Source: Acidobacteriota bacterium | Lineage (GTDB): Bacteria > Acidobacteriota > Terriglobia > Terriglobales > SCQP01 | Direction: 5' to 3' | Length of the DNA: 64,000 nt | Assembly (NCBI GenBank): GCA_027459505.1 | Contig: DAIDIE010000009.1 | Coordinates: forward strand, 1 to 64,000 | In this document: piece after piece, positions 4,828 to 37,947 of the stretch | Layout of the letters: each line of letters begins with the position of its first letter | How positions within the stretch are numbered: position 1 is the stretch's first letter | Position numbers and translations under genes: made by a program | The notes under the pieces: model-generated | Told to the model about the DNA's origin: nothing | Databases searched by the model: none | What the model saw: only the letters and a program-made list of their open reading frames with translations

Positions 4828-4833
4828 GAGGGT

Positions 4834-7021: not shown

Positions 7022-7034
7022 CTCTTCTGCGGCT

Positions 7035-9178: not shown

Positions 9179-9724
9179 AACAGTTCAGGATAGCGCGGGG
9201 GCGGGGGAGCATGGGTGCATGGTGCATAGAATGAAGCGTAGTGTTGGGAGTGTTGTGTTGGCACGTTGTGCTGGAAGTAGGGTGTCGGCCGGGGAGTCGG
9301 TGGGCTTGGTGGGGGGCCAGCGGGTGTGCACAGTTGTGCACACTAGGAGCACGCCCTTTCATATTGGCAATGGAGCGTTGTTCCACTTCAGGGGCTCTTC
9401 CCGTTTCCGGACTGGCTTTCCCGGACTGAAACCCCGCAAACAGAGGCATCCGCCTGGGGGCATCCCGATGCGGGAAATATTTACCGCACTACGTGATCAA
9501 AACTTCCTCTCACCCTTGTGTCGCAGCCGCCAAGCGCAAGCTTTGAGTTCGCCAAAGCTGAACAAAACAACAATGCCATCACAATTTCGTCACTTGTTTT
9601 GCGGAACTTCCGGGGTGAGAAAAAATTTCCCTTGCCACAGGCGCTGGATGGCCGCCGAAGTGCACAAGAGGCTGCACTGCCGCAGCTATTGCCGCGCAGC
9701 GAGACAATCTGGAGGAAGACCATA
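9179..9724. other. Long divergent intergenic region with a palindrome
   Basis: About 545 bp between ygfZ (leftward) and the sigma-like gene (rightward). No convincing gene is seen. It holds a perfect 8-bp inverted repeat, GTGTGCAC at 9324-9331 and GTGCACAC at 9336-9343 with a 4-nt spacer (operator-like), and a G/T-rich stretch at about 9235-9320. The AT-richer part (9540-9620) just upstream of the sigma-like gene could hold its promoter. Confidence 0.5.
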
Positions 9725-10252
9725 ATGGCCAGCCGCATCCAACCGCAACTGCAATTTGTTCCCTTGCCGGAAGACTACTGCCGCAGTTTGTGTGCCGCGC
9801 ATCAGGGGCGTCTGCAAGGGCTGGCTTACTGGATGCTGCGCGACGAGCGCGCGGCTGCCAGCCTCACGCAGGCCGTACTGCTGGAAGCGCTGCGGCGTGA
9901 GTCCATGGGTTGTGCGCCTCAGGGCGCCGCCGTCGCCGACCCTCAGACGCTCGGCGATACGCTGGACGAAGTGTTCGTGGAGTTCCTGCGGCCGTGCCTC
10001 GGCCTGCAGGGCGCCTCCACTACGGGAGCGCCGAAAGCCCTCGCTGGCCACCTGAGCGAGGAATTCACCACGCGCGCGTTGCCGACTGCCCTGCGTATCC
10101 TGCTGCCGCTGGAGCGCCTGATCTTCGTGCTCCACGAGCGCAATCACAACTCGCTGGACCGCATCAGCCAGCTCTTGTCGCTGGATCGCGTGGCCTGCGG
10201 CCGCATCCTCTTCCGCGCCCGCATGCAACTGCGCAACGCGCTCGTCCAGTAA
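9725..10252 (+). CDS. Degenerate ECF-sigma-like protein
   Basis: A 175-residue protein. The N-terminal part (CRSLCAAHQGRLQGLAYWML, then DERAAASLTQAVLLEALRR) resembles sigma-70 region 2 (…D.EDAEDLTQE.FL.AWR). The C-terminal part (LPTALRILLPLERLIFVLHE, then LDRISQLLSLDRVACGRILF) resembles region 4, with a helix-turn-helix-like stretch. Conserved acidic and DNA-contact residues look weakened, so promoter recognition is doubtful. ATG 9725 is preferred over an upstream frame because GGAGGAAG precedes it with good spacing. No anti-sigma factor is adjacent. Possibly a divergent ECF factor. Confidence 0.6.
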   Translation: MASRIQPQLQFVPLPEDYCRSLCAAHQGRLQGLAYWMLRDERAAASLTQAVLLEALRRESMGCAPQGAAVADPQTLGDTLDEVFVEFLRPCLGLQGASTTGAPKALAGHLSEEFTTRALPTALRILLPLERLIFVLHERNHNSLDRISQLLSLDRVACGRILFRARMQLRNALVQ

Positions 10253-13328: not shown

Positions 13329-13736
13329 TTACCCCAGCAAGCCCGCGATGGTGCTAAGCAGCAGGGTGATGGGAAACGGCTTGACCAGAAATGCGGCGCC
13401 ACTTTTGTCCTGCGCCTTGCGCTCGCGGATTTCGGCGCTGTCACCCGACATGAAGAGGTTTTTCACCTCCGGACGGATCTGCTGCAACTCCCGCGCCAGT
13501 TCCTCGCCTCCCACCCCTTCTTTCAGGTGCAGATCCCAGACCGTCAGATCGATCTGATCGGCCCGCTCCTGGAAGAGCTGGCGAGCCTGGATGGCATTGT
13601 TGGCAAGCAGGACGCGATAACCGTGGGCTTCGAGCAGGGTCCGGCAGAGATCCAGAATGCGAGGCTCGTCATCGACGATCAGGATGGTGGCGGGCGCTTT
13701 CACTCCATCGAAACTATAGCACCGGGGGGAGGCCAT
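13329..13736 (-). CDS. Receiver-only response regulator (CheY-like)
   Basis: A 135-residue single receiver domain. Visible: ILIVDDEPRILDL (acidic pocket), VWDLHLKE with the likely phosphoacceptor Asp, FMSGDS (switch Ser), and FLVKPFP (conserved Lys). With no output domain, it probably acts by protein contact. ATG 13736 is the best start; a GTG at 13703 just before APATILIVDD is an alternative. Its end lies 3 bp from the convergent deoC stop. A much longer apparent frame to 15497 is antisense to tldD and is not real. The partner kinase is unknown. Confidence 0.85.
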   Translation of the reverse strand: MASPRCYSFDGVKAPATILIVDDEPRILDLCRTLLEAHGYRVLLANNAIQARQLFQERADQIDLTVWDLHLKEGVGGEELARELQQIRPEVKNLFMSGDSAEIRERKAQDKSGAAFLVKPFPITLLLSTIAGLLG

Positions 13737-13814
13737 GCGCAGCCATTCGCCGGAAGCTGGAGCGAAAGCGGGCGGCGCCATCCGGTACGCTAAAATCATT
13801 AGCAGTCCTAAAGT

Positions 13815-14024
13815 GCCGGTCGAGTCGAACTTGATTTCGGGTTCGAAAACGCAGGCCGAAGTGACAGCAAAGGTTCGGGGTTGCCGTTGAGGTCCCGCAC
13901 CGCTGGCGATTAAAAAGCACGGCCACCATCCGTGAGCTTCGTCCGGGGCCCCCAAACCGCGCCGCGCGGCTCGGGGGTGGGGCCGGACACCGAAGCGGGT
14001 GAAATAAAAGCGGCCGTCCGCAAG
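13815..14024 (-). repeat. Dispersed intergenic repeat A, copy 2
   Basis: About 210 bp filling most of the gap between the divergent response regulator and tldD. The minus strand carries the blocks of copy 1 in the same order. The core (13821-13931) includes the stem TTTCG...CGAAA with loop AACC instead of AACT, a compensating-type difference. Between the core and the terminal hairpin (GCGGACGGCCGC then TTTTATTTCACC) sits a GC-rich insert also found in the partial copy at 6951-7021. Confidence 0.8.
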
Positions 14025-14042
14025 TGCCTTTTCCGAGGTTTC

Positions 14043-15485
14043 ATGGCTCAAGACGCGGTGCAATTTTTCTTTTCCCGCTACGGTTTCGGACAGCCCGAGC
14101 TGGAACGCTATCTGGCGGCGGCGCTGGAGCGCGGCGGCGAATACGCGGACCTCTATTTCGAATACCAGTCCACCTCTTCCTTGCAGGTGGATGAAAGCAT
14201 CGTGAAGTCGGCCAACTCCGGCATCTCGGTGGGCGTTGGCGTGCGTGTCATTGCCGGTGAGCGCACCGGTTACGCCTACACCGACGATCTGGCGCCGGAA
14301 AAAATCCTGCACGCTGCCCGCACGGCGGCGCACATTGCCAGCGGTCCGGCGCGTACTCACATTGTCGGTTTGAAAGACACGCTGGGAGCGGGCCGCCCCA
14401 GCCTTTATCCGGTGGTGGTCGCGCCCACCGACGTGGAGATCGGCGCCAAGCTGAGCCTGGCCTCGCGCGCCGACATTGCCGCCCGGGCTTACGATAAGCG
14501 CATCCATCAGGTCCGAGTCGGCTACGCCGATGAGGTTCGCCGGGTGCTGATTGCCACCTCGGAAGGCGTGGTGACCGGCGACTACCAGCCGCTGGCGCGC
14601 CTCAACGTGTTCTGCCTGGCCAAAGATGGCCAGCTCAGTCAACGCGGCAGTTCCGGAGGCGGTGGCCGCGTCGATCTCGACTTTTTCGAACGGCAACTCA
14701 CCCCGGAGCATCTGGGACGCGAGGCGGCGCGCGAGGCCATTCAGCAATTGAACGCGCGCGAGTGTCCCGCCGGGGAAATGGAAGTCGTGCTCGGTCCGGG
14801 CTGGCCCGGCGTGCTGCTGCATGAAGCCGTGGGGCACGGGCTGGAAGCCGACTTCAACCGTAAGAAGACTTCCGCCTTCTCCGGACTGATCGGCCAGCGC
14901 GTCGCCAGCGAGGCCTGCACGGTGGTCGATGACGGAACCATTCCAGGCCGCCGCGGTTCGCTCAACATCGACGACGAAGGGGCGCGGACCCAGTGCACCG
15001 TGCTGATCGAGAAGGGAGTTCTCAAGCAGTACCTGCAGGATCATCTCAGCGCCCGGCTGATGGGCGCCAGCGTGACCGGCAATGGGCGCCGCGAAAGTTA
15101 TGAGCACATGCCCATGCCGCGCATGACCAATACTTACATGCTGGGTGGCCAGGACGATCCCCAGGACATCATCCGCGGCGTAAAGCGCGGACTTTACGCC
15201 GTCAACTTTTCCGGCGGCCAGGTGGATATCACCAGCGGAAAATTCGTCTTCTCGGCCTCGGAAAGTTATCTGATTGAAGACGGCAAAATCACCGCTCCGG
15301 TGCGCGGCGCAACCTTGATTGGCAACGGCCCGGACGTGCTGACCCGGGTCACCCAGGTGGGCAACGACCTGCGTCTCGATCAGGGCATCGGCACCTGCGG
15401 CAAAGAAGGGCAGAGTGTCCCGGTGGGGGTGGGGCTGCCGACCATTAAAGTGGATCGGCTGACGGTGGGCGGCACGGCATCCTGA
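14043..15485 (+). CDS. tldD: Metalloprotease TldD
   Basis: Catalytic subunit of the TldD/TldE protease, which degrades unfolded peptides and matures some ribosomal peptides. The 480-residue protein has the zinc motif HEAVGH (H260, E261, H264) and a conserved late GTCGKEGQSVPVGVG region. ATG 14043 (MAQDAVQFFF) follows GAGG at 6-nt spacing; the longer upstream frame reads through repeat A and is rejected. First gene of a rightward operon with tldE 67 bp downstream. Confidence 0.96.
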   Translation: MAQDAVQFFFSRYGFGQPELERYLAAALERGGEYADLYFEYQSTSSLQVDESIVKSANSGISVGVGVRVIAGERTGYAYTDDLAPEKILHAARTAAHIASGPARTHIVGLKDTLGAGRPSLYPVVVAPTDVEIGAKLSLASRADIAARAYDKRIHQVRVGYADEVRRVLIATSEGVVTGDYQPLARLNVFCLAKDGQLSQRGSSGGGGRVDLDFFERQLTPEHLGREAAREAIQQLNARECPAGEMEVVLGPGWPGVLLHEAVGHGLEADFNRKKTSAFSGLIGQRVASEACTVVDDGTIPGRRGSLNIDDEGARTQCTVLIEKGVLKQYLQDHLSARLMGASVTGNGRRESYEHMPMPRMTNTYMLGGQDDPQDIIRGVKRGLYAVNFSGGQVDITSGKFVFSASESYLIEDGKITAPVRGATLIGNGPDVLTRVTQVGNDLRLDQGIGTCGKEGQSVPVGVGLPTIKVDRLTVGGTAS

Positions 15486-15552
15486 GGGGAGATCCACGAG
15501 GCTGCCTCAGCGGGTGAAAGCAAACGCGGCGGTGCCGCCAACGAGAGAGGGC

Positions 15553-18198: not shown

Positions 18199-20628
18199 AT
18201 GAAGCTTGCAACGAACATGAACTTTCGACGCTTCCTGCTCTTCTCGCTGGTCTCTCTGTTGACCGGTTCCACCGCCTTTGCCGCCTGGCATTCGTTGCAA
18301 GCCATGCCCGCCGCCACGGCGATTCCTCACGGCGTCGAGTACCGCAACGCCCAGGGAGAAGTACGTATCACGGTGGTCCGCGCCGGAGTCATCCGTGTGC
18401 GTTTCGCGCCGGGCAGACTGGGCCGCGATCATTCCTATGCGGTCGTCGAACAGTCATCGGACGTTCCCTTTCAATTCACCCCTGGTTCCGCGGGCGTGGA
18501 TCGCCTGAGCACGGCGGCGGTGGTGGTTGAAATCCAGCGCAACCCTTTCCGCATCCGCTTTCTCGCTCCCCAGGGCGGCGTGCTGGACGCCGACACCTCC
18601 GCCGATGGCATCGCCTTCAACGGCGCGCGCGTACAGGTGTGGAAAGAGCTGCGCCCCGAGGATCACTTCTATGGCTTTGGCGAGAAGGCGGGCCCATTCG
18701 ACAAGCGCGGCGTGGATCTGGACGGAACCCAGATGACCATGTGGAATTCCGATACGCCCGGCTACAACAGCGGCACCGATCCCATCTATGACGACATCCC
18801 GTTTTTCATGGTGCTGCGCCATGGAGTGGCGCACGGCATCTTCTTCGACAACACCTTCCGCAGCAGCTTCGATATCGGCAAAAGCGATCCCGCTTCTTAC
18901 GATTTTGGCGCCATGGGCGGCGAGCTCAACTACTACTTCATTGCCGGTCCGGCGCCGCGCGATGTGTTGCGTCGCTACCGTGATCTGACCGGTCCCATGC
19001 CGCTGCCCCCTCTCTGGAGCCTGGGCTATCAGCAGTGCCGCTACAGCTATTATCCCGACGCGGAAGTGCGCCGCATTGCCTCGACCTTCCGCGCCGACCG
19101 CATCCCCGCCGACGGCATCTGGTTCGACATTCATTACATGCGGGGCTATCGCGTCTTCACCTGGAACCACCACCGCTTTCCGCATCCGCGGCGGTTACTC
19201 GGCTACCTGCATGGGCTGGGCTTTCACACCGTCACCATTACCGATCCCGGTATCAAAAAAGATCCCAACTACTTCGCTTACCGGAGCGGCGTGCGCAACC
19301 ACATCTTCGCGACGCTTCCCAACGGCAACATCTTTATTGGGCCGGTCTGGCCGGGCGACGCCGCTTTTCCGGATTTCACCAATCCCAGGGCGCGCGACTG
19401 GTGGGGCCGGCAAATTGACCGCTTTGCCGCCGCCGGCGTGGATGGCATCTGGAACGACATGAACGAGCCGTCGGTCTTCAACACGCCGTTCAAGACCATG
19501 CCCAACGAGGTGCGCTTCTTCAACGCGGGGCAGCCGGGCACCGCGGCGGAGGACCACAACGTCTTCGGACAGCAGATGTCGCGCGCCACCCACGATGCGC
19601 TGCTACGCCTGCGTCCCGATGTGCGCCCCTTCGTGCTGACCCGCGCCACCTACGCCGGTGGACAGAAGTATGCGGCGGTCTGGACCGGCGACAACGTCGC
19701 CGACTGGAGCCACCTGCGTCATGGCGTCACCACGCTGCTGGGCATGGGCATCTCCGGCTACCCGTTTGTGGGTAACGATATCGGCGGGTTCATGGGCGTC
19801 GGCAACGCCGAGTTGTGGACGCGCTGGGTCGAGGCGGGCGCCTTCTTTCCCTTTATGCGTGCCCACGCCGTCTTTGGCGCCCCCCACAAGGAACCCTGGG
19901 CCTACGGTCCCGTCTATGAGGCCTTCAACCGCAAGGCCATTGAGCGCCGCTACGAGTTCCTGCCCTACATCTATAACGCCTTCCACAACAGCAGCCGTAC
20001 GGGCATGCCCATGATGCGTGCGCTGTTCCTGCAGTATCCGCAAGACCGCAACACTTATGCCATCTCCGATGAGTACCTGTTTGGCGCCGACTTGCTGGTG
20101 GCGCCGGTGCTCAGCCCCAATACCGCGCAGCGCAGCGTCTACCTCCCGGCGGGGAGCTGGTTCGATCTGAGCGGCCAGCGCTTCAACGGCGGACACGCCA
20201 TCACCGTGCGCGCGGCGATTGATCAGTTGCCTTTGTTCGTCCGCGATGGCTCGATCCTGTTCCGCTCGCCGGTCATCCAGAACACTAATCAATGGCCCAC
20301 CGCGCCGCTCATCTTCCAGGTGTTTTCCAGCGGGCCAACGCAGCGCGACTACTATGAGGATGACGGCATCAGCTTTGCCTACCGACGGGGCGTCTACGAG
20401 CAGCGCCGCCTGACCTACGCGCCGGGCATGTTCACCATCGCGGCGCCGCGGGGCAGCTACCGTTCCCACCACGCCGCAATCCTGGTCGAGGTGCATCCCG
20501 GCGCCCCGGTGCGTGCGGTGACCCTGAACGGGCAGCCGCTGCAGACGGCGCTGTGGAGCTTTGACAATGGCCTGCTCACCATGCGCGTGCCTGATACACC
20601 GCAGCCACTCACGCTGCGCTGGCAATAG
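18199..20628 (+). CDS. Secreted glycoside hydrolase family 31 (alpha-glucosidase type)
   Basis: A retaining GH31 enzyme, probably alpha-glucosidase or alpha-xylosidase. The 809-residue precursor has a signal peptide (about 1-28, RRFLLFSLVSLLTGSTAFA), an N-terminal beta-sandwich, a TIM barrel and C-terminal beta domains. The nucleophile is D420 in the family signature GIWNDMNEPSVF; the acid/base is D498 in WTGDNVADW. ATG 18199 is taken over an upstream TTG 18187. It lies 52 bp after alkA on the same strand. Substrate specificity cannot be read from the sequence. Confidence 0.94.
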   Translation: MKLATNMNFRRFLLFSLVSLLTGSTAFAAWHSLQAMPAATAIPHGVEYRNAQGEVRITVVRAGVIRVRFAPGRLGRDHSYAVVEQSSDVPFQFTPGSAGVDRLSTAAVVVEIQRNPFRIRFLAPQGGVLDADTSADGIAFNGARVQVWKELRPEDHFYGFGEKAGPFDKRGVDLDGTQMTMWNSDTPGYNSGTDPIYDDIPFFMVLRHGVAHGIFFDNTFRSSFDIGKSDPASYDFGAMGGELNYYFIAGPAPRDVLRRYRDLTGPMPLPPLWSLGYQQCRYSYYPDAEVRRIASTFRADRIPADGIWFDIHYMRGYRVFTWNHHRFPHPRRLLGYLHGLGFHTVTITDPGIKKDPNYFAYRSGVRNHIFATLPNGNIFIGPVWPGDAAFPDFTNPRARDWWGRQIDRFAAAGVDGIWNDMNEPSVFNTPFKTMPNEVRFFNAGQPGTAAEDHNVFGQQMSRATHDALLRLRPDVRPFVLTRATYAGGQKYAAVWTGDNVADWSHLRHGVTTLLGMGISGYPFVGNDIGGFMGVGNAELWTRWVEAGAFFPFMRAHAVFGAPHKEPWAYGPVYEAFNRKAIERRYEFLPYIYNAFHNSSRTGMPMMRALFLQYPQDRNTYAISDEYLFGADLLVAPVLSPNTAQRSVYLPAGSWFDLSGQRFNGGHAITVRAAIDQLPLFVRDGSILFRSPVIQNTNQWPTAPLIFQVFSSGPTQRDYYEDDGISFAYRRGVYEQRRLTYAPGMFTIAAPRGSYRSHHAAILVEVHPGAPVRAVTLNGQPLQTALWSFDNGLLTMRVPDTPQPLTLRWQ

Positions 20629-20633
20629 GGAAG

Positions 20634-20853
20634 AGGCACGGCCTCGTCTCCTTCAGGCCGCCCGCTCCCGTTGGTCGCTGGCACGTTCTCCAGTGAGACC
20701 GTGAAGCCGCCGATGCCGGGCTCCTCTCCCGCGCGAGGGGGCCGCCCTTCCCACCCCAACAAAGCAAACTGCGCTTTGTCGGGGCCCCCGGGAGAATTTC
20801 GCGGCCCTCCACCTGCGATCTCCTCCCGCAGGGAGGACTCGGTGGCTCGCTCC
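20634..20853 (+). repeat. Intergenic repeat B, copy 1 (inverted relative to copy 2)
   Basis: About 220 bp starting 5 bp after the GH31 stop. Its reverse complement matches 24631-24811 nearly base for base in long blocks (GAGGCACGGCCTCGTCTCC, GTTCTCCAGTGAGACCGTGA, TCCTCCCGCAGGGAGGACTC). It carries about 40 extra bases holding a hairpin, ACAAAGC and GCTTTGT flanked by CCCC and GGGG (about 20754-20785). No gene is seen in it. A 21-bp fragment of one end recurs at 43723-43743. Confidence 0.85.
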
Positions 20854-20972
20854 TGTGGGCCGCACCGCACAACCAAACGCCCCTGGCTGAAATCGCAATG
20901 GGAATGAAGAACGCAGCCGGAATGCTTTTGCCGCTGGAACCAGTCAGCGGGTACATGCCAGCAACCCTCTAT

Positions 20973-21092
20973 GGAGCAAAGCCGGATGGAGGCAGCTGGT
21001 CCAGACAACGACGGGACGGGACAAAGCAGGATGGGACAAAGCCGGCTGGAGCAAAGCCGGCCGAAGCAATTCTGGATGACGCAATGCTGGCG
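20973..21092. repeat. 15-bp-period degenerate tandem array
   Basis: Eight contiguous 15-bp units, for example GGAGCAAAGCCGGAT, GGGACAAAGCAGGAT, GGGACAAAGCCGGCT, GGAGCAAAGCCGGCC and GAAGCAATTCTGGAT. The period suggests a decayed or cryptic pentapeptide-coding tract. A plus-strand frame (20898-21254, 118 residues) crosses it with GTKQD/GTKPA/GAKPA units and ends in a Pro/Asp-rich tail, but lacks a Shine-Dalgarno, so I do not call it a gene. Confidence 0.7.
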
Positions 21093-21249
21093 GGCGGCGT
21101 GCTGCAGACCAGACCGTTGCTCTTGCGTTTTCCTCCACCTGATCCGGACCCTACCTATCCCATGCCGAGTCCGGAGCCGCAACCGATGCCCGATCCGCCG
21201 CCACCACCCTCGCCCAGCCCGCAACCCGATCCGGCGCCCTTTCCGGCCG

Positions 21250-21330
21250 ACTGAAGCAGACCGCCAACCCCCAGCAACGCCGCACGTGAACAGTGAACTG
21301 TAAACTGTGCACGGTAAACTGTGCACCATT
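21250..21330. repeat. Repeat module C with heptamer tract (a)
   Basis: A short module (GCAGACCGCCAACCCCCAGC, then AACGCCGCACGTGAAC) runs into heptamer-type repeats AGTGAACTGTAAACTGTGC. It is related to the modules at 21340-21462, 21733-21875, 22885-23042 and 24012-24085. No gene seen. Confidence 0.6.
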
Positions 21331-21339
21331 CGCCGTCCG

Positions 21340-21462
21340 CCGGCTGCCACGTAACGCGCTTTGGCGTGACGTGGGCAACGCGAGGCAGCGCCAAGGTCAT
21401 GCAGACCGCCAAACCAACCGCAACGCCCCACGGTGAACGGTGAACGGTGCACCGTGAACATG
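21340..21462. repeat. Repeat module C with hairpin and heptamer tract (b)
   Basis: In order: a hairpin with CCACGT and ACGTGG arms (21345-21370), the block GCCAAGGTCATGCAGACCGC, a CCAACCGCAACGCCCCACGG block, then GTGAACG heptamers. The same order (hairpin, GCC(A/G)AGGTCATG block, heptamers) is seen at 23985-24085. Confidence 0.6.
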
Positions 21463-21479
21463 AACTTCCACGAACTGCC

Positions 21480-21508
21480 TTGCCGCAACTCTCCACCTTG
21501 TCTATAAT
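21480..21508 (+). promoter_or_regulatory. Promoter of tRNA-Phe
   Basis: TTGCCG (21480-21485), 17-bp spacer, perfect TATAAT (21503-21508). The predicted transcript would begin about 30 nt before the tRNA, leaving a short 5' leader. This is one of the best sigma-70 promoters in the window. Confidence 0.8.
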
Positions 21509-21547
21509 CAAATCTCCGCCCGGTTGTCCCCCCGTTTGGACCACACT

Positions 21548-21623
<76 letters not shown>

Positions 21624-21732
21624 CTTCTGCCCGCCTTTACCTGCGGCGGCCGCTGTGCCCTGTCCCCCATGCGCAATCCGTAAAGGGGCCCCGGCTGAAC
21701 GCCGTTCACAAAGCCGCACTCCTCCACTCGTG

Positions 21733-21875
21733 CTGGGCGCAACCCCGGAATTTCGTTCGCCCCGTAGCGCGCCCACAACGCCCCGCCAGGATCGTCTGCG
21801 CCGCCCCAACATCCGCAACGCCCGACCATCCGCAACGCCCCACGGTGAACTGTCAACTGTGAACTGTAAACTCTG
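21733..21875. repeat. Repeat module C, copy C1
   Basis: Contains GCGCAACCCCGGAATTTCG, GTAGCGCGCCCACAACGCC, CGCCAGGATCGTCTGCGCCG, two 17-bp units of CATCCGCAACGCCC type, then the heptamer run GTGAACTGTCAACTGTGAAC. Nearly the same series occurs at 22885-23042; its first part recurs at 23752-23797. It sits between tRNA-Phe and the ArsR gene. Confidence 0.75.
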
Positions 21876-21905
21876 CCGCGCCGGCGCGCTTCCCCGTTGT
21901 TTGAT

Positions 21906-21929
21906 ATACTGAACCACATGGTTCAGTAT
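21906..21929. promoter_or_regulatory. Palindromic operator covering the arsR-type start codon
   Basis: Perfect 11-bp arms, ATACTGAACCA and TGGTTCAGTAT, separated by 2 nt (CA). The palindrome overlaps the -10-like TATACT (21905-21910) and contains the ATG at 21918-21920. Binding by the encoded regulator would block its own promoter and start site. Known ArsR regulators often repress through such palindromes; that this regulator binds here is inference. Confidence 0.75.
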
Positions 21930-22280
21930 CCAGAGCCCGTTCTCGATGCCACGTTCGCAGCGCTCTCCGATCCCACCCGGCGCGGTGTTTTGGAGCTGCT
22001 CGGGCGCGCGGACGCTTCGATCACCGATCTTGCCGAAAACTTTCACATGACCCTGACCGGCATGAAGAAACACGTTGGCGTTTTGGAGGAGGCGGGGCTC
22101 GTCTCCACCGAAAAGATCGGGAGGGTACGGACCTGCAGGCTTGGTCTGAACGGAATGGGAAAAGAGGCGGAATGGCTGGAGAAATACCGCCAGCTCTGGT
22201 CCCGGCGCTTTGACGAGCTAGACACCGTTGTCGAGGAGTTGAAACAGAAGGAGAAAACCCGTGGACAAAAGAAACAATAG
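21918..22280 (+). CDS. ArsR-family transcriptional regulator
   Basis: 120-residue winged-helix regulator: ALSDPTRRGVLELLGRAD (helices 1-2), SITDLAENFHMTLTGMKKHV (helix-turn-helix), and EAGLVSTEKIGRVRTCRL (wing). It has no metal-binding cysteine motif. Its stop overlaps the next gene's GTG by 20 bp; ArsR paired with an SRPBCC protein is a common two-gene autoregulated unit. ATG 21918 lies in a palindrome with TATACT 7 nt before it and no Shine-Dalgarno, so the message may be leaderless. An in-frame ATG at 21897 would precede the -10 element. Confidence 0.93.
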   Translation: MVQYPEPVLDATFAALSDPTRRGVLELLGRADASITDLAENFHMTLTGMKKHVGVLEEAGLVSTEKIGRVRTCRLGLNGMGKEAEWLEKYRQLWSRRFDELDTVVEELKQKEKTRGQKKQ

Positions 22281-22884: not shown

Positions 22885-23042
22885 CAAAGTGGGCGCAAAC
22901 CCAGAATCGTAGTTCAACCCGAAGCGCGCCCGCGATACGCCGCCAGGATCGTCTGCGCCGCCCAACCAACCGCAACGTCCAACCATCCGCGCCGTCCCAC
23001 CAGCCGCAACGCCCCACGGTGAACTGTCAACTGTGAACTCCT
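22885..23042. repeat. Repeat module C, copy C2
   Basis: Carries the C1 blocks in the same order: GGGCGCAAACCCAGAATCG, GAAGCGCGCCCGCGATACGC, CGCCAGGATCGTCTGCGCCG, a CCAACCGCAACGTCC tract, and the heptamers GTGAACTGTCAACTGTGAAC. It occupies the whole gap between the SRPBCC terminator and the convergent DinB gene. Confidence 0.75.
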
Positions 23043-23071
23043 CGTTCCCCCCCCCGGAACCGCGGGTCCGC

Positions 23072-23575
23072 TTACGCCCCGGCAGCGCCGGCGTCGTCCG
23101 CCGAAGGACCGTAGATGCCGGGAACGGCAACATCGTTCAGGCGGAGGTAGACCGTGAGCTGGCCGCGGTGGTGAATGATGTGGTTCATGATCATGCTGCG
23201 GATAGCTGCGACACGCGGCAAGGCGAAGATGACGTGATCACCGTTTTTGAGCGTCCACGTCTTCAAAAAGTTCTCGTCGGAGGTCTGGGAAAGCTGCGCC
23301 CGCACCTGCGCCACCCACTGGTCGAAGTCGTGCAGCAGTTGCGGGAGTGTGGTCATCTCCACGTTCTTATATTCCCGCACGTCGTAGGCGTCGGCCTTGA
23401 GCACGTCTCCGGCCCAGCGCGCGACCTCGGCCAGGTGGCTGGCCAGACGGCCCATGGTCATCGACTTCTGGTGCGGCTTCCAATCGGCCTTCGCCTCCGG
23501 CACCGCCGCCAGCACTTTGCGGGTGTTAGCCATCTCGTGATCGAACTCGGGCAGCAAGCTATCCGCAATACGCAT
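23072..23575 (-). CDS. DinB-family protein
   Basis: 167-residue four-helix-bundle protein of the DinB/YfiT group; members bind divalent metal and some are thiol transferases. The metal-ligand pattern is visible: a His in SMTMGRLASHLAEVARW and the pair in MNHIIHHRGQL. ATG 23575 is chosen because AAGGAG precedes it at good spacing; the longer frame to 23803 runs into repeat sequence. Isolated gene inside the repeat-rich island. Specific activity unknown. Confidence 0.88.
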   Translation of the reverse strand: MRIADSLLPEFDHEMANTRKVLAAVPEAKADWKPHQKSMTMGRLASHLAEVARWAGDVLKADAYDVREYKNVEMTTLPQLLHDFDQWVAQVRAQLSQTSDENFLKTWTLKNGDHVIFALPRVAAIRSMIMNHIIHHRGQLTVYLRLNDVAVPGIYGPSADDAGAAGA

Positions 23576-23751
23576 GGTGATCGCTCCTTGAGGAAAAAAG
23601 GCGCGAGCCATCCAGCGCCCGTGCCCATAAAAGATGCTAGCACTGTGTTTCCGCCGGAGCGCCCGCCACGTCAGAGGCCCGGTCTGAATAGCCGGGCGAC
23701 GCCGATCAGCCGCGGCGGGTGGAGTCAAAGCGGCCGTGCCGCCGCTCGTGC

Positions 23752-23797
23752 AGGGCACAACCCCGGAATTTCCTTCGCGCTGAAGCGCGCCCAGCGC
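23752..23797. repeat. Repeat module C, partial copy C3
   Basis: GGGCACAACCCCGGAATTTC followed by CGCTGAAGCGCGCCCAGCGC matches the first part of C1 and C2 and then diverges. Just before it (about 23716-23743) is a GGTGGAGTCAAA-GCGGC-CGT-GCCGC match to the terminal hairpin of repeat A. Confidence 0.65.
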
Positions 23798-23984
23798 AAA
23801 CAAAGGCGCGTACGGCTGCGGCTGTGCCTGGCCGCGTTCACATTGGCGGTTGGGAGTTGTGCTGGCTGCGGCGGTTCAGCCACCTCTACCGCGGCGCGCT
23901 GAGGTTGCCTTCAGGCGCCCTCCAGGAGGAGGGGCTCGTCGGGTGTCCTATGGAAGGGTGCGGGTAATGGAACGCCTGCGGGTG

Positions 23985-25009: not shown

Positions 25010-27214
25010 TCACGGTTCTCGCAGGGTCAGCTCCGCGTTGCGCGCCTGGGGATGGACGGTCACACGAAACTCGCGGGTCTCCGGGTTATAGGTGAGCCGG
25101 TCCGCGGTTCCGCGGCGCATGCGCAATGTGGGCTTTTTGGCGGCGAAGCCGAACAGGGTTACCGCCGGTTCATTGGCCGCGAACACCACCTTCGCGGACA
25201 GGCCCTGGCGGCTGTCATGCAGGCTGGTGATGCGGGATTTCCCTGTGCCCACGAACTTGTCCGCGTCGCCCAGTAGGGCAATTCCGCTGGCGCCGGGAGA
25301 GGCGCAGACATCATAGGAGGCGTCCTCGGCGCCCAGCGCGCCGCTGTAGGCCGCGCCGGCGGCTACCAGTTGCGCGCCGTGGGAGAAATAGTCGTAAACG
25401 TACATCGGGCCGCGCAGTCCCACCGCGGCGGCGGTAAAGCGCACCGGGCCGCGGTCGGCGGCTCTGCGCGCGAAGGCGAACACATACGCGGTGCGCACGT
25501 TGCCCCGCTGGGTGAAGGTGGCCGCCAGGGTGGGAACGTGGGCGCCAAGCGCTCCATCCAGATAACTCTGGTCGAGCGGGACGAGGGGCGCGTCGGGCTT
25601 GATCAAGACGCCATCGGCGCGGACCGCTTGCATAAGGTTGACTTTGTTTTCTTTCCCGATGGCGTCGCCAAAGCCGACTGGGCCAGTGGAGAGCGTTTGC
25701 AGCAGCACCGCGTCTGCATCTGGACTGTCGCAGACGTCGGCCCAGGGATGGGCGCCCATGGCGGCGGCAAACTGCGAGGTAAAGACAAAGGGGTACCAGT
25801 GGGCGCGCAGGAAATGGTCGTTGCTGACGCGCGAGGTGGTGAGGTTGGAGAAGCGGCTCTCCTCCAGGATTTCGCTGGGCACCGGCATGCAGTACTGCAT
25901 GGTCATGTGGCGCGCCGCGAGGGCAGCCGCCATGTTGCGGAAGAACTGGCCGCCAAGGCCGGGGTGCGAGGCGAATCCGGAATAATGGCGGATCACATTG
26001 AGCCAGTCCTGCTCGTAGGTCACCACGCCGTTGCCGCGCAGATAGTTGGCCGTGCGGTTCCAATAGGCTGGATCGATGGGAGCGATGCCGGCGATGCGGT
26101 AACGCCTGTGGTAAGGGCTGCGCTGGCTGATCCAGCGTCCATGCACGACAAAGGGCATGCCACTCTGGTGGTGAAAGGCCAGCAGCCCATGGGGGAATAG
26201 CTGGCGGGAGGCGCGGTAGAGCCACACGCCCCCGTAAACGTTCCAGCGTGACAGCCGGAAATTGGGGTTTTTGGCCTTCAGCGGCGTGCCGTCATAAGAG
26301 ACGGGATCTTTCTGGTACCACCAGCTATCGAGCTGCAGATATCGCACGGGAATGCCTTGCCGCTTGAGGTGACGCAGTTCGGCGAGCAGGGTTCCGGTGT
26401 AGCCGAGTTGGGGATCGTAATGGTAGTAGTAAGTGGCGCCGTTATCGGTCCAGTAACCGAGGTAGCGCAGGCTGTCATCGGCGGTGTTGGAAGCGGCCAC
26501 GCGTCCGCTGAGCTTTTGCAGCAGGCTGCCCCAGGCGTCCATGGTGTGGCCGATGCCGTTTCCATAAACCAGCAGCGTGTGCTGCCGGAATCCATCCTCG
26601 ATCTGGTTGACGCCGCTATTCAACGAGACGGCCGCAGTGGTGAGACCGTCGCCGCGTAACGTGGCCACCTGGAAGTGATTGGCCGGGGAAAGCACCAAGG
26701 TATGGAAGTTCTGGTCGAACAATACCCAGGGCGTGGAGGCCTGGATGGCGCTGAACGCCGGGGGAGAGAAGGCGTGATTGGCGTAGCTGAGAACATGCAG
26801 TCCCGAGGGAAGCCGCTGAAAATCGGGAAAGGCAGAAATGGCGCCCGGCGAGAAATGCGCGCCCTGTGGATACCTGATCCAGAAGCTGACCGCTGGGGTT
26901 CGCGTGTAGGCGCGAATCGTGCCCTGGAGCGGAATCTGCCGCCGGCTCCAGCGCAGACGCACTTCGCGGTAGGGGCCCAGCCGGTCATGACCAGTGCGGA
27001 GGCTGACCTGTTGCAGGGCCGCGCCAGTGGCGCCCTGCAACACCCAGGCAGGTTCTCCCGGCTGCCGCAGTTGGAGGGTGTAGCGCCCCTGGGCCGCGTT
27101 CACGGTAACGCGCCAGGATTGCGCTCGCGCCGTAACGGAGGCGGCCAACAGGAACAGCGGCACGGCGGAAATGAACCCGTTTCGCAGTGTGAAACGCAGG
27201 GATCGGCGGAGCAT
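25010..27214 (-). CDS. Large secreted glycosidase-like protein (melibiase/GH36-like, tentative)
   Basis: 734 residues with a signal peptide (about 1-31, ending SVTARAQS). A beta-rich N-terminal domain precedes a probable TIM barrel: SLRYLGYWTDNGATYYY, VRYLQLDSWWYQKD, GVVTYEQDWLNVI, MTMQYCMPVPSEI and PWADVCDSPDADAV. The alternating YWTDNG and LQLDSWW blocks are reminiscent of alpha-galactosidase/raffinose-synthase-like (GH36 clan) proteins, where an Asp in such strands is catalytic. Gene, secretion and barrel character are well supported; the family and substrate are not. Confidence 0.6.
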   Translation of the reverse strand: MLRRSLRFTLRNGFISAVPLFLLAASVTARAQSWRVTVNAAQGRYTLQLRQPGEPAWVLQGATGAALQQVSLRTGHDRLGPYREVRLRWSRRQIPLQGTIRAYTRTPAVSFWIRYPQGAHFSPGAISAFPDFQRLPSGLHVLSYANHAFSPPAFSAIQASTPWVLFDQNFHTLVLSPANHFQVATLRGDGLTTAAVSLNSGVNQIEDGFRQHTLLVYGNGIGHTMDAWGSLLQKLSGRVAASNTADDSLRYLGYWTDNGATYYYHYDPQLGYTGTLLAELRHLKRQGIPVRYLQLDSWWYQKDPVSYDGTPLKAKNPNFRLSRWNVYGGVWLYRASRQLFPHGLLAFHHQSGMPFVVHGRWISQRSPYHRRYRIAGIAPIDPAYWNRTANYLRGNGVVTYEQDWLNVIRHYSGFASHPGLGGQFFRNMAAALAARHMTMQYCMPVPSEILEESRFSNLTTSRVSNDHFLRAHWYPFVFTSQFAAAMGAHPWADVCDSPDADAVLLQTLSTGPVGFGDAIGKENKVNLMQAVRADGVLIKPDAPLVPLDQSYLDGALGAHVPTLAATFTQRGNVRTAYVFAFARRAADRGPVRFTAAAVGLRGPMYVYDYFSHGAQLVAAGAAYSGALGAEDASYDVCASPGASGIALLGDADKFVGTGKSRITSLHDSRQGLSAKVVFAANEPAVTLFGFAAKKPTLRMRRGTADRLTYNPETREFRVTVHPQARNAELTLREP

Positions 27215-27325: not shown

Positions 27326-30037
27326 TTACACCCGCCGGGAGGCTTCCGCCTCGCTCCGCAGAGAGCGCTCCGGGACGGGTGCGAGGCTGAAGAAAATGCT
27401 GGCCCCTTCGCCGGGAGCGCTCTCCGCCCAGGCGGTACCGCCGTGACGTTTGACCACGCGGGAGACGGTGGCGAGACCGATGCCCGTGCCTTCAAACTCC
27501 ACCGCGCTGTGCAGGCGCTGGAAGGGCTGGAAGAGCTTGTGGGCGTAGTTCATGTCAAAGCCGACGCCGTTGTCGCGAACCACGAACACAGGAGTGCCAT
27601 TGTGTTGCCCGGCGGTAACCTCAATGCGCGCTGCAGGACGCTTACGCGTAAACTTCCAGGCGTTGCGCAGCAGGTTATCGAGCACGACGCGGAGCAAGCG
27701 TGGATCACCGTAGGCTTTGAGGCCCGGTGCGATGACGATCTCGGCGGAGCGATCGGGATCGGACTGCCGCAAGGATGCGGCCACTTCACCCGCCAGAGCG
27801 GTCACGTCGATTTCCTGGAGGCGCATCTCGGCGCGGGTGACGCGCGCCAGTTCCAGCAGATCGTCGATGAGCTGGTTCATCTGCACGGTGGCCGAGCGTA
27901 CCATTCCCAGCCACTCCACCGCCTGTGCATCCAGCTTGCCGGCGTAATCCTCCAGCACCGCCTCGGTAAAGCCCGAGATGGTGCGCAGCGGCGCGCGCAG
28001 GTCGTGGGAGACGGAATAGCTGAACGTCTCCAGCTCCTGCATGGCGACGCGCAACTCGGCGGTACGTTGTTGGACGCGTTCTTCCAGCTCGGCATTGAGG
28101 CGCTGCACCTCGCGCTGCTGGCGCGCGAGTTCGCGCTCGTTTTCGCTGGCGCGGCGCGCCTCCGAGCGTTCGCGCTGCACGGCCTTTTCCAGTTCCTGGC
28201 GCCGGTCCAGCAGTTGCAGAGTCAGCCGCTCCAGGTCCTGCTCCTGGCTGTCGAGTTCCCGCTGCAGGTGTTTGCGGGCCAGGCGCAGCGAGACCAGGTT
28301 GCTGACGCGCGCGCGCAACTCGTCGGCCAGAAACGGTTTCAGCAGGAAGTCCTGCGCGCCCTCGCGCAACAGGCGCACGCGCACGGTCTCGTCGGCTTTA
28401 GCGCTCAGGACCAGTACGGGGACGGAATATAAGGAGGCGCGCGAGCGCAGTTGCGCGAGCAAGTGCTCGCCGCTGCTGCCCGGCATCATGAGATCGGTGA
28501 CCACGACATCCGGTTCCACGCTGAGCGCGCTTTGCAGGGCGTCCTGGCCGTTCCAGCAGCTCACCACCCGGTAATCGGATGAAAGTGTTTCGACCAGAAA
28601 ACGATTCATGTCGGGGTGATCTTCGGCGATCAGCACCAGGGGCTTTTCGCTGCCGGCGGCGGCATTGGGCGCAGGCGCGGTATTGGGCGCGGGCGCGGCA
28701 TTTCCGGCGGCGTTGACGGTTGGCTGCCGATCCTTGGCGATCTGCCCGCGCAAAACTTCCACTTCTCCACGCGCGAGTTGTTGCAGGGCGGCGGTGGTTA
28801 CGGGAGCGGTTTTTAAACCGGCGCTTGGTTCGACGGTGGCGGCTGGCAGGCGCACGACAAAGCGGGCGCCGCCTTCGACGGCATCGCTGACCGATATCTC
28901 GCCGTTATGCAGCCTGGTGAACTCCTGAACAATAGCCAGGCCCAGGCCAGTGCCGCCGGTCTGGCGATCGGAACCTTCCTCCAGTTGCCGGAAGCGCTCG
29001 AATATGTGTACGCGGTCGTTGGGTGGAATGCCAGGGCCACTGTCGCGCACTTCGAAGCGCACCCAGCGCCGCTCTCCCGTATCTTCCGGCTGAACGCTGC
29101 AGCGGATACGGCCCCCAACCGGAGTGAACTTAAACGCGTTGCCGAGCAGATTCAGCAGGATGCGTTCCAGCTTGTTGCGGTCTCCGAGGAGGAGCACGCC
29201 ATTCTCCGCCTCTACTCCAAAGTCGATTTTCCGCTCGGATGCCAGCAGGCCAAAATGGCTGCTTACCAGATACAAGAGCTCGCCGGCATCGACCGGTTCC
29301 GCTTCCAGCCGGAGGCCGCCGGCATCCAGCTTGGATAAATCCAGCAGATCGTTGACATGTTTCAGTAATGTCTGAGCGTTGCGCTGGATAACCGTTAACT
29401 GAGGCTGGAAGGCTTGGGCCTGAGGAGCTTTCAAAAGCTGTTCGACTGGTCCAAGAATCAATGTTAGTGGCGTGCGCAGCTCATGGCTGACGTTGGAGAA
29501 GAATTGCGTTTTGAGCTGATCCAGCCGTTCCAGTTGCTGGTGCACCACGGTAAGTTCTTCGTGGGCTTGTTCGAGATGGCGTTTGCGCTGCTCGGAGGTT
29601 TCCGCATCCTGCAGCACCCGCAGGAGCTGGGGAATAACGCCAGGGAGCGCCACTGCGGTCGCCACAGAAGCCACCGCCGTAACCGCTTTGACTGCGCCCG
29701 AGAGCCAGTAAACCGGAATCCAGAGTGTCACCACGTCCATGAAGTGGGTTCCGGCGCAGGCCACGATGAACAGGCCAAAGGCCACAATGACCCAGCTAAA
29801 CGGCATCAAGCGGCGCGCCCGCCGGACTAAATAGGCCAGCAGGAAGGAAATCACCACATAGGAAATGCCGATCAACAGGTCGGAGACGGCATGCAGCCAG
29901 ATCAGCGGCGGCTGGAAATCAAAGCACATCCGATGGGGCATCAGATGGCGATCAGAAAGCAGGGCCGGGCTGGCCCAAATCCCAAGTACAACCAGGATGG
30001 CCGCTGTGATTGTCCAAGCGACTTTTCGGAAATTCAT
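27326..30037 (-). CDS. Dual histidine kinase with ethylene-receptor-like membrane domain
   Basis: A 903-residue membrane kinase. N-terminal helix, then three membrane segments (about 45-135) with LIWLHAVSDLLIGISY and FGLFIVACAGTHFMDV, matching the ethylene-binding domain of ETR1: D53, Y60, C94 and H98 align with ETR1 D25, Y32, C65 and H69, while P36 is replaced by S64. Next: kinase 1 with H185 in VSHELRTPL and an ATPase domain; a receiver with phosphoacceptor D515 in VVTDLMMPG; a coiled coil; kinase 2 with H678 in VSHDLRAPL and a second ATPase domain. ATG 30037 is preferred over TTG 30079. No partner regulator is adjacent. Ethylene binding is inference. Confidence 0.88.
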   Translation of the reverse strand: MNFRKVAWTITAAILVVLGIWASPALLSDRHLMPHRMCFDFQPPLIWLHAVSDLLIGISYVVISFLLAYLVRRARRLMPFSWVIVAFGLFIVACAGTHFMDVVTLWIPVYWLSGAVKAVTAVASVATAVALPGVIPQLLRVLQDAETSEQRKRHLEQAHEELTVVHQQLERLDQLKTQFFSNVSHELRTPLTLILGPVEQLLKAPQAQAFQPQLTVIQRNAQTLLKHVNDLLDLSKLDAGGLRLEAEPVDAGELLYLVSSHFGLLASERKIDFGVEAENGVLLLGDRNKLERILLNLLGNAFKFTPVGGRIRCSVQPEDTGERRWVRFEVRDSGPGIPPNDRVHIFERFRQLEEGSDRQTGGTGLGLAIVQEFTRLHNGEISVSDAVEGGARFVVRLPAATVEPSAGLKTAPVTTAALQQLARGEVEVLRGQIAKDRQPTVNAAGNAAPAPNTAPAPNAAAGSEKPLVLIAEDHPDMNRFLVETLSSDYRVVSCWNGQDALQSALSVEPDVVVTDLMMPGSSGEHLLAQLRSRASLYSVPVLVLSAKADETVRVRLLREGAQDFLLKPFLADELRARVSNLVSLRLARKHLQRELDSQEQDLERLTLQLLDRRQELEKAVQRERSEARRASENERELARQQREVQRLNAELEERVQQRTAELRVAMQELETFSYSVSHDLRAPLRTISGFTEAVLEDYAGKLDAQAVEWLGMVRSATVQMNQLIDDLLELARVTRAEMRLQEIDVTALAGEVAASLRQSDPDRSAEIVIAPGLKAYGDPRLLRVVLDNLLRNAWKFTRKRPAARIEVTAGQHNGTPVFVVRDNGVGFDMNYAHKLFQPFQRLHSAVEFEGTGIGLATVSRVVKRHGGTAWAESAPGEGASIFFSLAPVPERSLRSEAEASRRV

Positions 30038-30135
30038 AGCGAACTTGGGTCGACTCGAATTAGTTTGACGGAGTGGCAAACGGCAGTAGCTTCAGCATAG
30101 CACGGGCGCCGTTGGCGTTCTGCGCGGCATAGTGC

Positions 30136-31260
<1,125 letters not shown>

Positions 31261-31299
31261 TCATTTCTCCTGTGAGTGGCGGCCGCCGTGGTTGTGCCG

Positions 31300-32265
31300 C
31301 TAAGCCCACCAGACCTTGGGCTTTGGTTCCCGGATGATCAGTTGCCGTAGCAGGGTAGAGGCCTTTTCGAGGCCCTCATCCTGCGACATGAGGCTGTCTT
31401 CGTGCTCGATGCTGAGGACGCCATCGTATCCGGCCAGGCGCAGTGTGGAAATAAAGTTCGCCCACCAGTCCGCACCGTGCCCATAGCCGACCGTGCGAAA
31501 GATCCAGCCGCGATGGACTTCGTCCACGTACGGCTTGGTGTCGAGAACGCCGGTGCGGTTGCAAACCGAGTCGAAGATTTGGGTGTCTTTGGCATGGACA
31601 TGGAAGATTGCGCCCGCCTGCCCCAAAATACGGATCGCCTCAATCGGGTCGATGCGCTGCCAGAAGAGGTGGCTGGGATCGAAGTTGCAGCCGATGGCTT
31701 CACCGGCTTCCTGGCGGAGGCGAAGCATGGTCTCGGGGGAGTACACGACGAAGCCGGGGTGCATTTCAATGGCGACCTGGACACCGTGATCGGAGGCGAA
31801 GGCGGCCAGATCGCGCCAGTAGGGAATAACCTTTTGCTCCCATTGCCACTTCAGCAGATCGCTGTATTCCGGAGGCCAGGGGCAAGTGACCCAGTTGGGG
31901 TGTTGCGCCGTATCGCTGTCGCCAGGGCAGCCGGCAAAGTCGATGACCGTTCGTACCCCAAGCTTTTCCGCCAGCAGAATGGTCTGCCGGGTGGTGCCGG
32001 CAAAGGCTTCCCGGGTGCCTTGCTGTGGGTGGAGTGGATTGCCGTGGCAGCTCAGCGCGCTGATGCTGATGCCGCGGCTCTCCAACTCCGTGCGCAAGCG
32101 CTGCACCTGGGCGGGCTGCTCAAGCCAGCTCAGCTTGCAATGCGGATCTCCTGGATAGTTTCCTGTTCCCAACTCGACGGTGGTGAGCCCCAGGCCCAGA
32201 GCCTTGTCCAGAGCTTCGGTCAGACTGAGATTGCCCCAAAGGGCGGTGAAGACGCCAACCCGCAT
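31300..32265 (-). CDS. Sugar phosphate isomerase/epimerase (xylose-isomerase-like TIM barrel)
   Basis: 321-residue TIM barrel of the AP-endonuclease-2/IolE superfamily. Likely divalent-metal ligands are seen in order: Glu in VAIEMHPGF, Asp and His in NFDPSHLFW, His in FHVHAKD, and Glu in LSIEHEDS. ATG 32265 (MRVGVFTALWGN) follows a strong AGGAGG; the longer frame to 32523 is rejected. First gene of a two-gene leftward operon with the Gfo/Idh/MocA enzyme. Confidence 0.92.
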   Translation of the reverse strand: MRVGVFTALWGNLSLTEALDKALGLGLTTVELGTGNYPGDPHCKLSWLEQPAQVQRLRTELESRGISISALSCHGNPLHPQQGTREAFAGTTRQTILLAEKLGVRTVIDFAGCPGDSDTAQHPNWVTCPWPPEYSDLLKWQWEQKVIPYWRDLAAFASDHGVQVAIEMHPGFVVYSPETMLRLRQEAGEAIGCNFDPSHLFWQRIDPIEAIRILGQAGAIFHVHAKDTQIFDSVCNRTGVLDTKPYVDEVHRGWIFRTVGYGHGADWWANFISTLRLAGYDGVLSIEHEDSLMSQDEGLEKASTLLRQLIIREPKPKVWWA

Positions 32266-32536
32266 GCGCAAGTCCTCCTGTCGAGCTGTACTCACGATAA
32301 AGCAGCACCGGGTGAAAAGGGAAGTTGCCGTGCTGACTCCGTTGCCGCTGATAGCGTTGCGGGCGAATCCGGAGAGAGCGGCAACCCTGCCGCGGGTGGC
32401 TTTCGTTGCGGTTTTACGGTTTCCCCTCACGCCAGCGCTGGAAAACGGGTTTGGCTGGCCCACTTTCGCCCAAAGGAACAAACCCCCACTCTGCACCCTC
32501 GCATCAGTTGCTCTGTAGCGCAACGGGAGAAATTGG

Positions 32537-36933: not shown

Positions 36934-37886
36934 ACTCAAAGTTGCGGCGGCAATTGCAGCAAGTGAACCAGGAGCTGTGGGTGGTTCTCAGCATTTTTTT
37001 GCTGGCGCTGTTCCTGAATCATTTTCTCGCCTCGCAACGCATGCTGCTCGGCCTCTACACCCTGCCGAGCGTCTTTTCCGCATACGTTTATGGCCGGCGC
37101 CACGCGGTGGCCACCGCCGTGGCCAGCGTGGGACTGGTGGCCCTGCTCGGCTATCTCTACCCGACGATGATCCGGCCAGCTTCGCAACAGGTACCGGGGC
37201 AGCAGTGGTTCGATTTCACGGTATGGGGCTGCATCCTGATCATCACCGCCTATGCGATGGGCACGCTGTACGAACACAAGCGCAACTACGTCAACGAATT
37301 GCGCGAGACCTACAACGGCGTCCTGGTGATCCTGCGGCAGTTCATTTCCAAGGACAAGTACACGCAAAACCATTCCTACCGCGTCTCGCTGTACGCCACC
37401 CGCATCGCCGCGGGCATGGGACTGGACCAGGAACGCATCGAAGATGTGCGCGCGGCGGCTCTGCTGCACGACATCGGCAAACTCGACATCAGCCGCGAGT
37501 TGCTCTACAAGGCGGCTCGTCTGACGCCAGATGAATTCAGCGAAGTGCAGACCCATGTGCAACGCGGAGTGGAGATGCTGTCGCCGGTGGGCGGCACCTT
37601 GCGCCGGGTCCTGCCCATCATTTTGGCGCACCACGACAAATTCGACGGCAGCGGATATCACCCCACCAAGGGCGACGACATTCCAATGGAGGCGCGCATT
37701 ATTGCGGTGGCCGATGTTTACGATGCGCTGACCAGTGACCGGCCGTACCGGCAGGCAATCAGCCCCTTTGAAGCGCGAGAAATCATCGAGAAGGGCAGTG
37801 GCAAGGAGTTCGATCCGCACGTGGTCGAGGTATTCCTGCAGGCTTTCCGCAAACGCGAGTTGGAGATTCCCGAACTGGTGTTGTAG
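36930..37886 (+). CDS. Membrane HD-GYP domain protein (likely c-di-GMP phosphodiesterase)
   Basis: 318 residues. About four membrane segments (residues 15-115) precede a short linker and an HD-GYP domain. H180-D181 lie in LLHDIGKLD. The signature at 234-244 reads HHDKFDGSGYH, where the usual form is HHExxDGxGYP; D replaces E and H replaces P, so activity may be altered. IIAVADVYDALTSDRPYR is the usual C-terminal block. GTG 36930 with GAGG upstream. Degradation of c-di-GMP is the family role; no diguanylate cyclase is nearby. Confidence 0.92.
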   Translation: MNSKLRRQLQQVNQELWVVLSIFLLALFLNHFLASQRMLLGLYTLPSVFSAYVYGRRHAVATAVASVGLVALLGYLYPTMIRPASQQVPGQQWFDFTVWGCILIITAYAMGTLYEHKRNYVNELRETYNGVLVILRQFISKDKYTQNHSYRVSLYATRIAAGMGLDQERIEDVRAAALLHDIGKLDISRELLYKAARLTPDEFSEVQTHVQRGVEMLSPVGGTLRRVLPIILAHHDKFDGSGYHPTKGDDIPMEARIIAVADVYDALTSDRPYRQAISPFEAREIIEKGSGKEFDPHVVEVFLQAFRKRELEIPELVL

Positions 37887-37905
37887 GCGCGTCACGCTGG
37901 CGCGC

Positions 37906-37947
37906 AAGCAAAAGGCCCGCTCCCTGCGAGGAGCGGGCCTTTTGCTT
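37906..37947. terminator. Bidirectional terminator
   Basis: Perfect 18-bp stem: AAGCAAAAGGCCCGCTCC (37906-37923), 6-nt loop, GGAGCGGGCCTTTTGCTT (37930-37947). It has A-rich left and T-rich right edges, so it works for both the rightward HD-GYP gene and the leftward metK. Confidence 0.92.

Follow-up and report, generated by a model that had tools for sequence, protein, structure and literature searches.

In a 64,000-nucleotide stretch of DNA from an Acidobacteriota bacterium (contig DAIDIE010000009.1; called the window below), the gene at positions 27326-30037 of the minus strand encodes a real ETR1-type sensor kinase. Its ethylene-receptor-like membrane domain (ETR1_N) is followed by a histidine kinase module (HK1), a receiver (REC) and a second histidine kinase module (HK2), in that order, and the motifs of all parts are intact. 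Ethylene sensing by this protein is plausible from its residues. The full mechanism that we propose, a Cu(I)-dependent sensor of a small alkene in which HK1, the receiver and HK2 would act in series and deliver the signal to an outside receiver, has in our judgment about an even chance of being correct. The features of the gene are as follows, where TM is a transmembrane helix and DHp the dimerization and histidine phosphotransfer domain.

27326..30037, minus strand: whole gene, 903 amino acids from the ATG at 30037, or 917 amino acids from an upstream TTG at 30079.
29975..30031, minus strand: TM0, an extra N-terminal helix, residues 3-21 (hydropathy and AlphaFold helix 3-21).
29924..29935, minus strand: H35-x-x-C38 motif directly ahead of TM1 (alignment).
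29615..29905, minus strand: ETR1_N domain, with TM1 at 43-74 (D53, Y60, I63, S64), TM2 at 80-106 (I91, C94, H98) and TM3 from 110 (PF25487, alignment and model).
28835..29512, minus strand: HK1, with DHp (H185 in SHELRTP) and a catalytic domain with N, G1, F and G2 boxes; the TM3 helix is continuous into DHp (Pfam, motifs and model).
28310..28636, minus strand: receiver, residues 468-576, phospho-acceptor D515 (Pfam, purpose-built profiles and motifs).
28025..28327, minus strand: helical linker from the receiver to the second DHp (DHp2), helices 571-623 and 632-697, with low confidence at 619-630 (AlphaFold model).
27383..28027, minus strand: HK2, with DHp (H678 in SHDLRAP) and a catalytic domain, boxes intact (Pfam, motifs and tree).

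The open reading frame (ORF) 27326-30079 is open and complete in the ORF analysis of the window, and inspection of both starts revealed no clear ribosome-binding site before the ATG at 30037 or the TTG at 30079. Residue numbers count from the ATG, and the coordinates of the Pfam scan count from the TTG (+14 residues). A preliminary description of this DNA had noted a resemblance to an ethylene-binding domain and two complete histidine kinase modules around one receiver, and both points are borne out. Pfam PF25487 (ETR1_N) matched residues 59-155 (TTG numbering) with E 6.5e-33 and 113 bits against a cut-off of 27. The further Pfam domains were two copies of HisKA, two of HATPase_c and one Response_reg. 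Each kinase carries the H motif and the N, G1, F and G2 boxes, and the receiver carries D515 and K567. The Pfam scan of the protein gave no PAS or GAF match, including no GAF domain between the membrane domain and the kinase. In a whole-genome profile search, ETR1_N was present as a single copy in the source genome (E 2.4e-34, 119 bits).

The copper site of ETR1 is kept in this domain. In an alignment with AtETR1, D53, Y60, C94 and H98 aligned with ETR1 D25, Y32, C65 and H69, and six of the seven residues essential in ETR1 were retained, including I63 and I91, with P36 replaced by S64. The metal-site residues, their spacing and the serine at the proline position therefore stand as first described, and the numbering is right by the same alignment. 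D53, Y60, I63, I91, C94 and H98 were invariant in 37/37 rows with the ETR-HK-REC-HK order (this protein included), indicating that the site is under constraint. An AlphaFold model of the N-terminal part (predicted local distance difference test, pLDDT, 89.6) contained the expected membrane helices at 43-74, 80-106 and 110-183, with TM1 and TM2 as consecutive helices; hydropathy agreed with the membrane helices of the model. Counting from the TM1-TM2 turn of this model, we infer that D53 would lie near the level of H98 and that Y60 would be level with C94. Searched against the PDB with Foldseek, the N-terminal model returned nothing better than E 1.5, and PDB sequences searched with a profile returned nothing up to E 1.

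A residue survey covered 128 distinct bacterial rows, of which 111 had intact D/Y/C/H residues. The HxxC motif before TM1 was found in 109/111 of these intact rows and in 6/17 rows with a broken site; 37/37 ETR-HK-REC-HK rows had it, as did most of the remaining bacterial rows. When HxxC was compared with an intact copper site over independent pairs on supported branches, only 4 pairs were available, about 3 of them in favour (median p 0.25). A role of HxxC as a copper-loading site is thus put forward as an idea only. A 2019 Geitlerinema paper (PMC6682694) describes two N-terminal cysteines in plants and one here in cyanobacteria, with a suggested dimer linkage.

In the proposed mechanism, Cu(I) would be held at C94 and H98, together with D53 and Y60, and a small ligand on the copper would alter the pose of TM3; ethylene or some other small alkene is the likeliest candidate. 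The full-length AlphaFold model (pLDDT 75.4; predicted template modelling score, pTM, 0.46), which is to be trusted for helix layout and not for the arrangement of parts, has an unbroken helix at 110-203 that runs from TM3 into the first DHp. This continuous helix, which no PAS or GAF domain interrupts, would pass the signal to HK1, which would phosphorylate D515 of its own receiver. The last helix of the receiver in the model spans 571-623 and is followed by 632-697 into DHp2, with a break and low confidence at 619-630; through this broken helix the receiver is joined to an intact DHp and catalytic (CA) domain in the second half, as in receiver-controlled kinases. Via the helical linker, the phosphorylated receiver would switch HK2 as in such kinases, and HK2 would phosphorylate a separate single-domain receiver whose gene lies elsewhere in the genome. 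The two kinase outputs first proposed for this protein appear less likely than a series from the first kinase through the receiver to the second, because the last helix of the receiver runs toward DHp2, as in LvrB.

Several observations weigh against this mechanism. S64 stands in place of P36, which is among the seven residues reported as essential for ethylene binding in ETR1 (PMC6586836, PMC11819568). The full-length model is of moderate quality by its pLDDT and pTM, and its linker contains the low-confidence break. A profile search of the window showed that no receiver gene adjoins the sensor gene. Furthermore, ETR1_N was found in 0/13 other genomes of the same family (completeness 54-98%), indicating that the domain does not serve a core function in this group.

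The position of S64 was examined across the ETR1_N domain. Among the 111 intact-site bacterial rows, ETR1 position 36 was S in 70, P in 31, A in 6, F in 3 and G in 1, and in the 37 ETR-HK-REC-HK rows it was S in 36 and A in 1. A tree was built from 105 bacterial rows with AtETR1 and AzoEtr1, from which the position-36 column and the loop had been removed and 23 rows with A, F, C, L or G at position 36 were left out. The S/P label (71 S and 36 P rows) needed 2 changes on this tree, compared with a mean of about 30 after shuffling, and a branch with 99/96 support united the 36 P rows, among them AtETR1 and AzoEtr1, with 1 S row; this tree has few columns, and its AtETR1 branch is very long. Columns 64-87 spanned 24 residues in 65/71 S rows and 23 in 35/35 P rows, AtETR1 included. 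In rows outside the tree the span was 24 in 9 A rows, 27 in 6 F rows and 26 in 4 C rows. By sequence, S64 thus marks one of two lineages of the ETR1_N domain. HxxC is common to S and P rows and therefore does not set the S class apart.

These data raise the possibility that proteins of the S64 lineage use copper to sense a non-ethylene ligand (a different alkene, acetylene, carbon monoxide or even Cu(I)) with the same kinase relay, which we regard as a serious alternative but not the probable one. It is favoured by the S/P split, in which the two tested receptors placed on the tree both fall on the P side, by the difference in the 64-87 span, by the essential role reported for P36 in ETR1 (PMC6586836), and by D/Y/C/H being intact in 70/71 S rows, a pattern that suggests a kept copper site with a different pocket. 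Against it, 37/37 ETR-HK-REC-HK rows retain the remaining residues reported to be essential, P36 was tested in the plant protein and not in an S-type background, and the long AtETR1 branch and few columns weaken the tree. Among the open-access papers listed, judged by titles and the openings of abstracts, there was no binding report for any ligand on an S-type protein and no acidobacterial ethylene receptor. Fungal receptors with measured ethylene binding are reported to exist (PMC9603746), and all seven residues are stated to be present in AzoEtr1, GeiEtr1 and GeiEtr2 (PMC11819568, PMC6682694). The ethylene sensor claim for the present protein is based on six of these seven by sequence, and, given S64 in place of an essential proline and its S-type lineage, ethylene sensing stays plausible only.

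Of the described bacterial ethylene receptors, SynEtr1, AzoEtr1 and the putative GeiEtr1 and GeiEtr2 share with our protein an N-terminal ETR1_N domain that carries the D, Y, I, I, C, H set on a histidine kinase. They differ in having proline at position 36 (AzoEtr1 by its sequence, the others by the statements of the papers) where our protein has serine, and in having, according to those papers, a PAS or GAF domain and one kinase, whereas here there is no PAS or GAF match and two kinases stand around a receiver. The plant ETR1/ERS1 family (PF25487) likewise has a transmembrane ethylene-binding domain and a kinase, and ETR1 also has a receiver; unlike that family, our protein has HxxC and an extra N-terminal helix, the latter also present in plant subfamily 2. 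The plant-type receptor has a GAF domain between the membrane domain and the kinase, in contrast to the continuous helix 110-203.

For the kinase half, the best NCBIfam match was NF047465 (LvrA of Leptospira) at 601.7 bits, under the model cut-off of 1200. LvrA has the same HK-REC-HK order but, unlike our protein, lies in the cytoplasm, carries a PAS domain and has a short linker from the receiver to the second DHp. It is a studied kinase of this order, whose first kinase is reported to autophosphorylate and to prefer its own receiver (PMC5863495). LvrB resembles the second half of the sensor in its receiver-helix-DHp-CA layout; it is a separate protein phosphorylated in trans, whereas here the module is fused behind HK1. 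Phosphorylation of the LvrB receiver is reported to switch the kinase on, with formation of a helix coiled coil and release of a catalytic domain (PMC13269768). Two parallel outputs, with HK1 and HK2 feeding separate regulators and the receiver as a side branch, would agree with the fully kept motifs of both kinases and with the branched path reported for LvrA, which feeds its own receiver and LvrB (PMC5863495); yet a receiver directly before HK2 with a helical linker is the receiver-controlled layout, and we consider parallel outputs improbable. That the sensor is decayed or silent, its domain kept by chance after transfer, is very unlikely: the source genome alone has the domain among the 14 family genomes searched, but the 903-codon frame is open and the catalytic motifs and copper-site residues are intact.

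The distribution of the domain and its architecture was then surveyed in relatives. With matches taken at E up to 0.001 and the source genome counted, ETR1_N was found in 18/396 genomes of the phylum (17 over the Pfam cut-off) and in 74/298 genomes of the order (71 over the cut-off). Scanning named genomes yielded 157 relatives; 80 of them were kept, and the architecture of all 80 was read with purpose-built profiles. The ETR-HK-REC-HK order was present in 36/80 of these loci, a biased frequency since the scan used patterns from sequences close to the sensor: 28 had ETR-DHp-CA-REC-DHp-CA, 7 had an extra terminal receiver and 1 was cut off. Counting the cut-off locus, 29 of the 36 were cyanobacterial, and three genomes gave two loci each; the other 35 comprised 28 from Cyanobacteriota, 3 from Verrucomicrobiota, 2 from Chloroflexota and 1 each from Nitrospirota and Elusimicrobiota. 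The suggestion that an HK-receiver-HK architecture is unusual was consequently rejected, LvrA having it as well. Among 60 loci taken from part of the phylum and order matches, 0/60 had this order, and profiles found no kinase in 11/60, where divergent kinases can have escaped.

The origin of the second kinase was analyzed with a tree of 76 modules (36 HK2, 6 HK1 and 34 single kinases). The single kinases were chosen by similarity to the sensor's HK2, so the tree is better at showing where HK2 does not belong. The HK2 of the sensor and that of an Elusimicrobia locus (L123) grouped with the 34 single kinases, most of which are acidobacterial, and were separated from the 34 other HK2s by a branch with 100/100 support. 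A single clade of all HK2s was rejected (log-likelihood lower by 113.6; approximately unbiased test, p 4.98e-69). The closest HK2 matches, at 59%, were kinases from three genomes of the same family (G397, G403 and G405). In the tree of the ETR domain and HK1, the 37 ETR-HK-REC-HK rows did not form one clade (p 0.00047), because they are interspersed with single-kinase and simple hybrid relatives. A single inherited ETR-HK-REC-HK architecture was thus upheld neither by the HK2s nor by the ETR and HK1 half. Since HK2 here and in L123 belongs to a kinase clade other than that of the cyanobacterial HK2s, the same order was probably assembled more than once; counting against repeated assembly, the ETR domain alone (110 columns) did not reject one clade (p 0.134). 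The full-length tree joined the sensor and L123 at 100/99, with a warning of long branches meeting, and the long branches of the sensor, L121 and L076 make exact placements unsure. Transfer from cyanobacteria was considered, and the sequence evidence points different ways: by identity the closest ETR domain was that of cyanobacterial L069 (61%), an S-type protein of Microseira wollei, by tree path the two nearest rows were acidobacterial (L126 and L118), the full-length tree paired the sensor with the Elusimicrobia protein, and its HK2 was nearest to kinases from its own family. A modest dip in GC content over 29000-30499 (0.573) was not used for the question of origin.

Taken together, the analyses lead to a broader proposal, that ETR1_N comprises two classes and that the S class would keep the copper site with a reshaped pocket for a non-ethylene ligand and, in several phyla, would have acquired by repeated fusion a receiver-controlled second kinase, not always of the same origin. 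The pocket is called reshaped because of the serine in place of an essential proline and the one residue more in the TM1-TM2 span. As a whole we hold this proposal to be rather unlikely.

The likeliest output of the sensor protein is a stand-alone receiver, because one overlaps the gene in L123 and others follow similar kinases in the source genome. The receiver of L123, the sister in the full-length tree, is 148 amino acids long and overlaps the start of the sensor gene there by about 30 bp if the most upstream start is used. A receiver-bearing gene lay within 300 bp in 14/36 relatives (a raw count, as some loci end within or soon past that distance), and in 10 of these 14 the nearby receiver was a single-domain protein of 126-153 amino acids. 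AzoEtr1, a proven receptor, is reported also to have a small stand-alone receiver beside it (PMC11819568). Among the matches listed, 4/6 HK2-type kinases of the source genome were directly followed by a single-domain receiver (C44:106201, C45:19770, C31:130014 and C43:157348), and C31:92079 and C1:213902 were not. Four further stand-alone receivers, at C13, C34, C1 and C31:110134, had no profile-detected kinase within about 4.4-5 kb and are candidate partners. Choice of a partner by sequence failed, the receiver of L123 matching several receivers of the source genome at 33-39%, so no single partner is named.

Two other loci of the source genome carry related kinases. At L211 (G000:C44:98000-112000), positions 1116-9945 encode in a row a 2262-amino-acid hybrid kinase with three receivers, a 486-amino-acid REC-kinase and a single-domain receiver, a row that resembles an LvrA/LvrB-like relay as separate genes. 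At L231 (G000:C31:88500-97500), positions 3547-7383 hold a second such pair, a two-receiver kinase followed by an HK2-type REC-kinase.

Within the window, a profile search found only one other receiver-bearing ORF, at 13329-15497 (minus strand), about 12 kb away, and the initial statement that no regulator lies beside the gene holds. This ORF encodes 722 amino acids, in which the profiles find only a C-terminal receiver at residues 605-712. The 734-amino-acid ORF beside the sensor, 25010-27214 (minus strand), matched nothing in Pfam or NCBIfam at E 0.01. Upstream on the same strand, 30136-32523 (minus strand) encodes a Gfo/Idh/MocA dehydrogenase and a xylose-isomerase-like TIM barrel; the nearest NCBIfam model for the dehydrogenase was levoglucosan dehydrogenase, under its cut-off. 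Three long ORFs, 20457-22073 (minus strand), 23033-23902 (plus strand) and 36936-37907 (minus strand), had no Pfam match at E 0.001.

In the double kinase described here, a receiver-controlled relay like that of LvrA and LvrB would be fused into one protein. Published searches, as reported, count bacterial proteins as likely ethylene receptors if the seven plant residues are kept; S-type domains fail this rule by one residue, yet keep the copper site. They outnumber P-type domains in our panel (71 vs 34 bacterial rows, the panel being biased toward the S type), and ethylene binding by the S type would bear on a large set of bacterial kinases.
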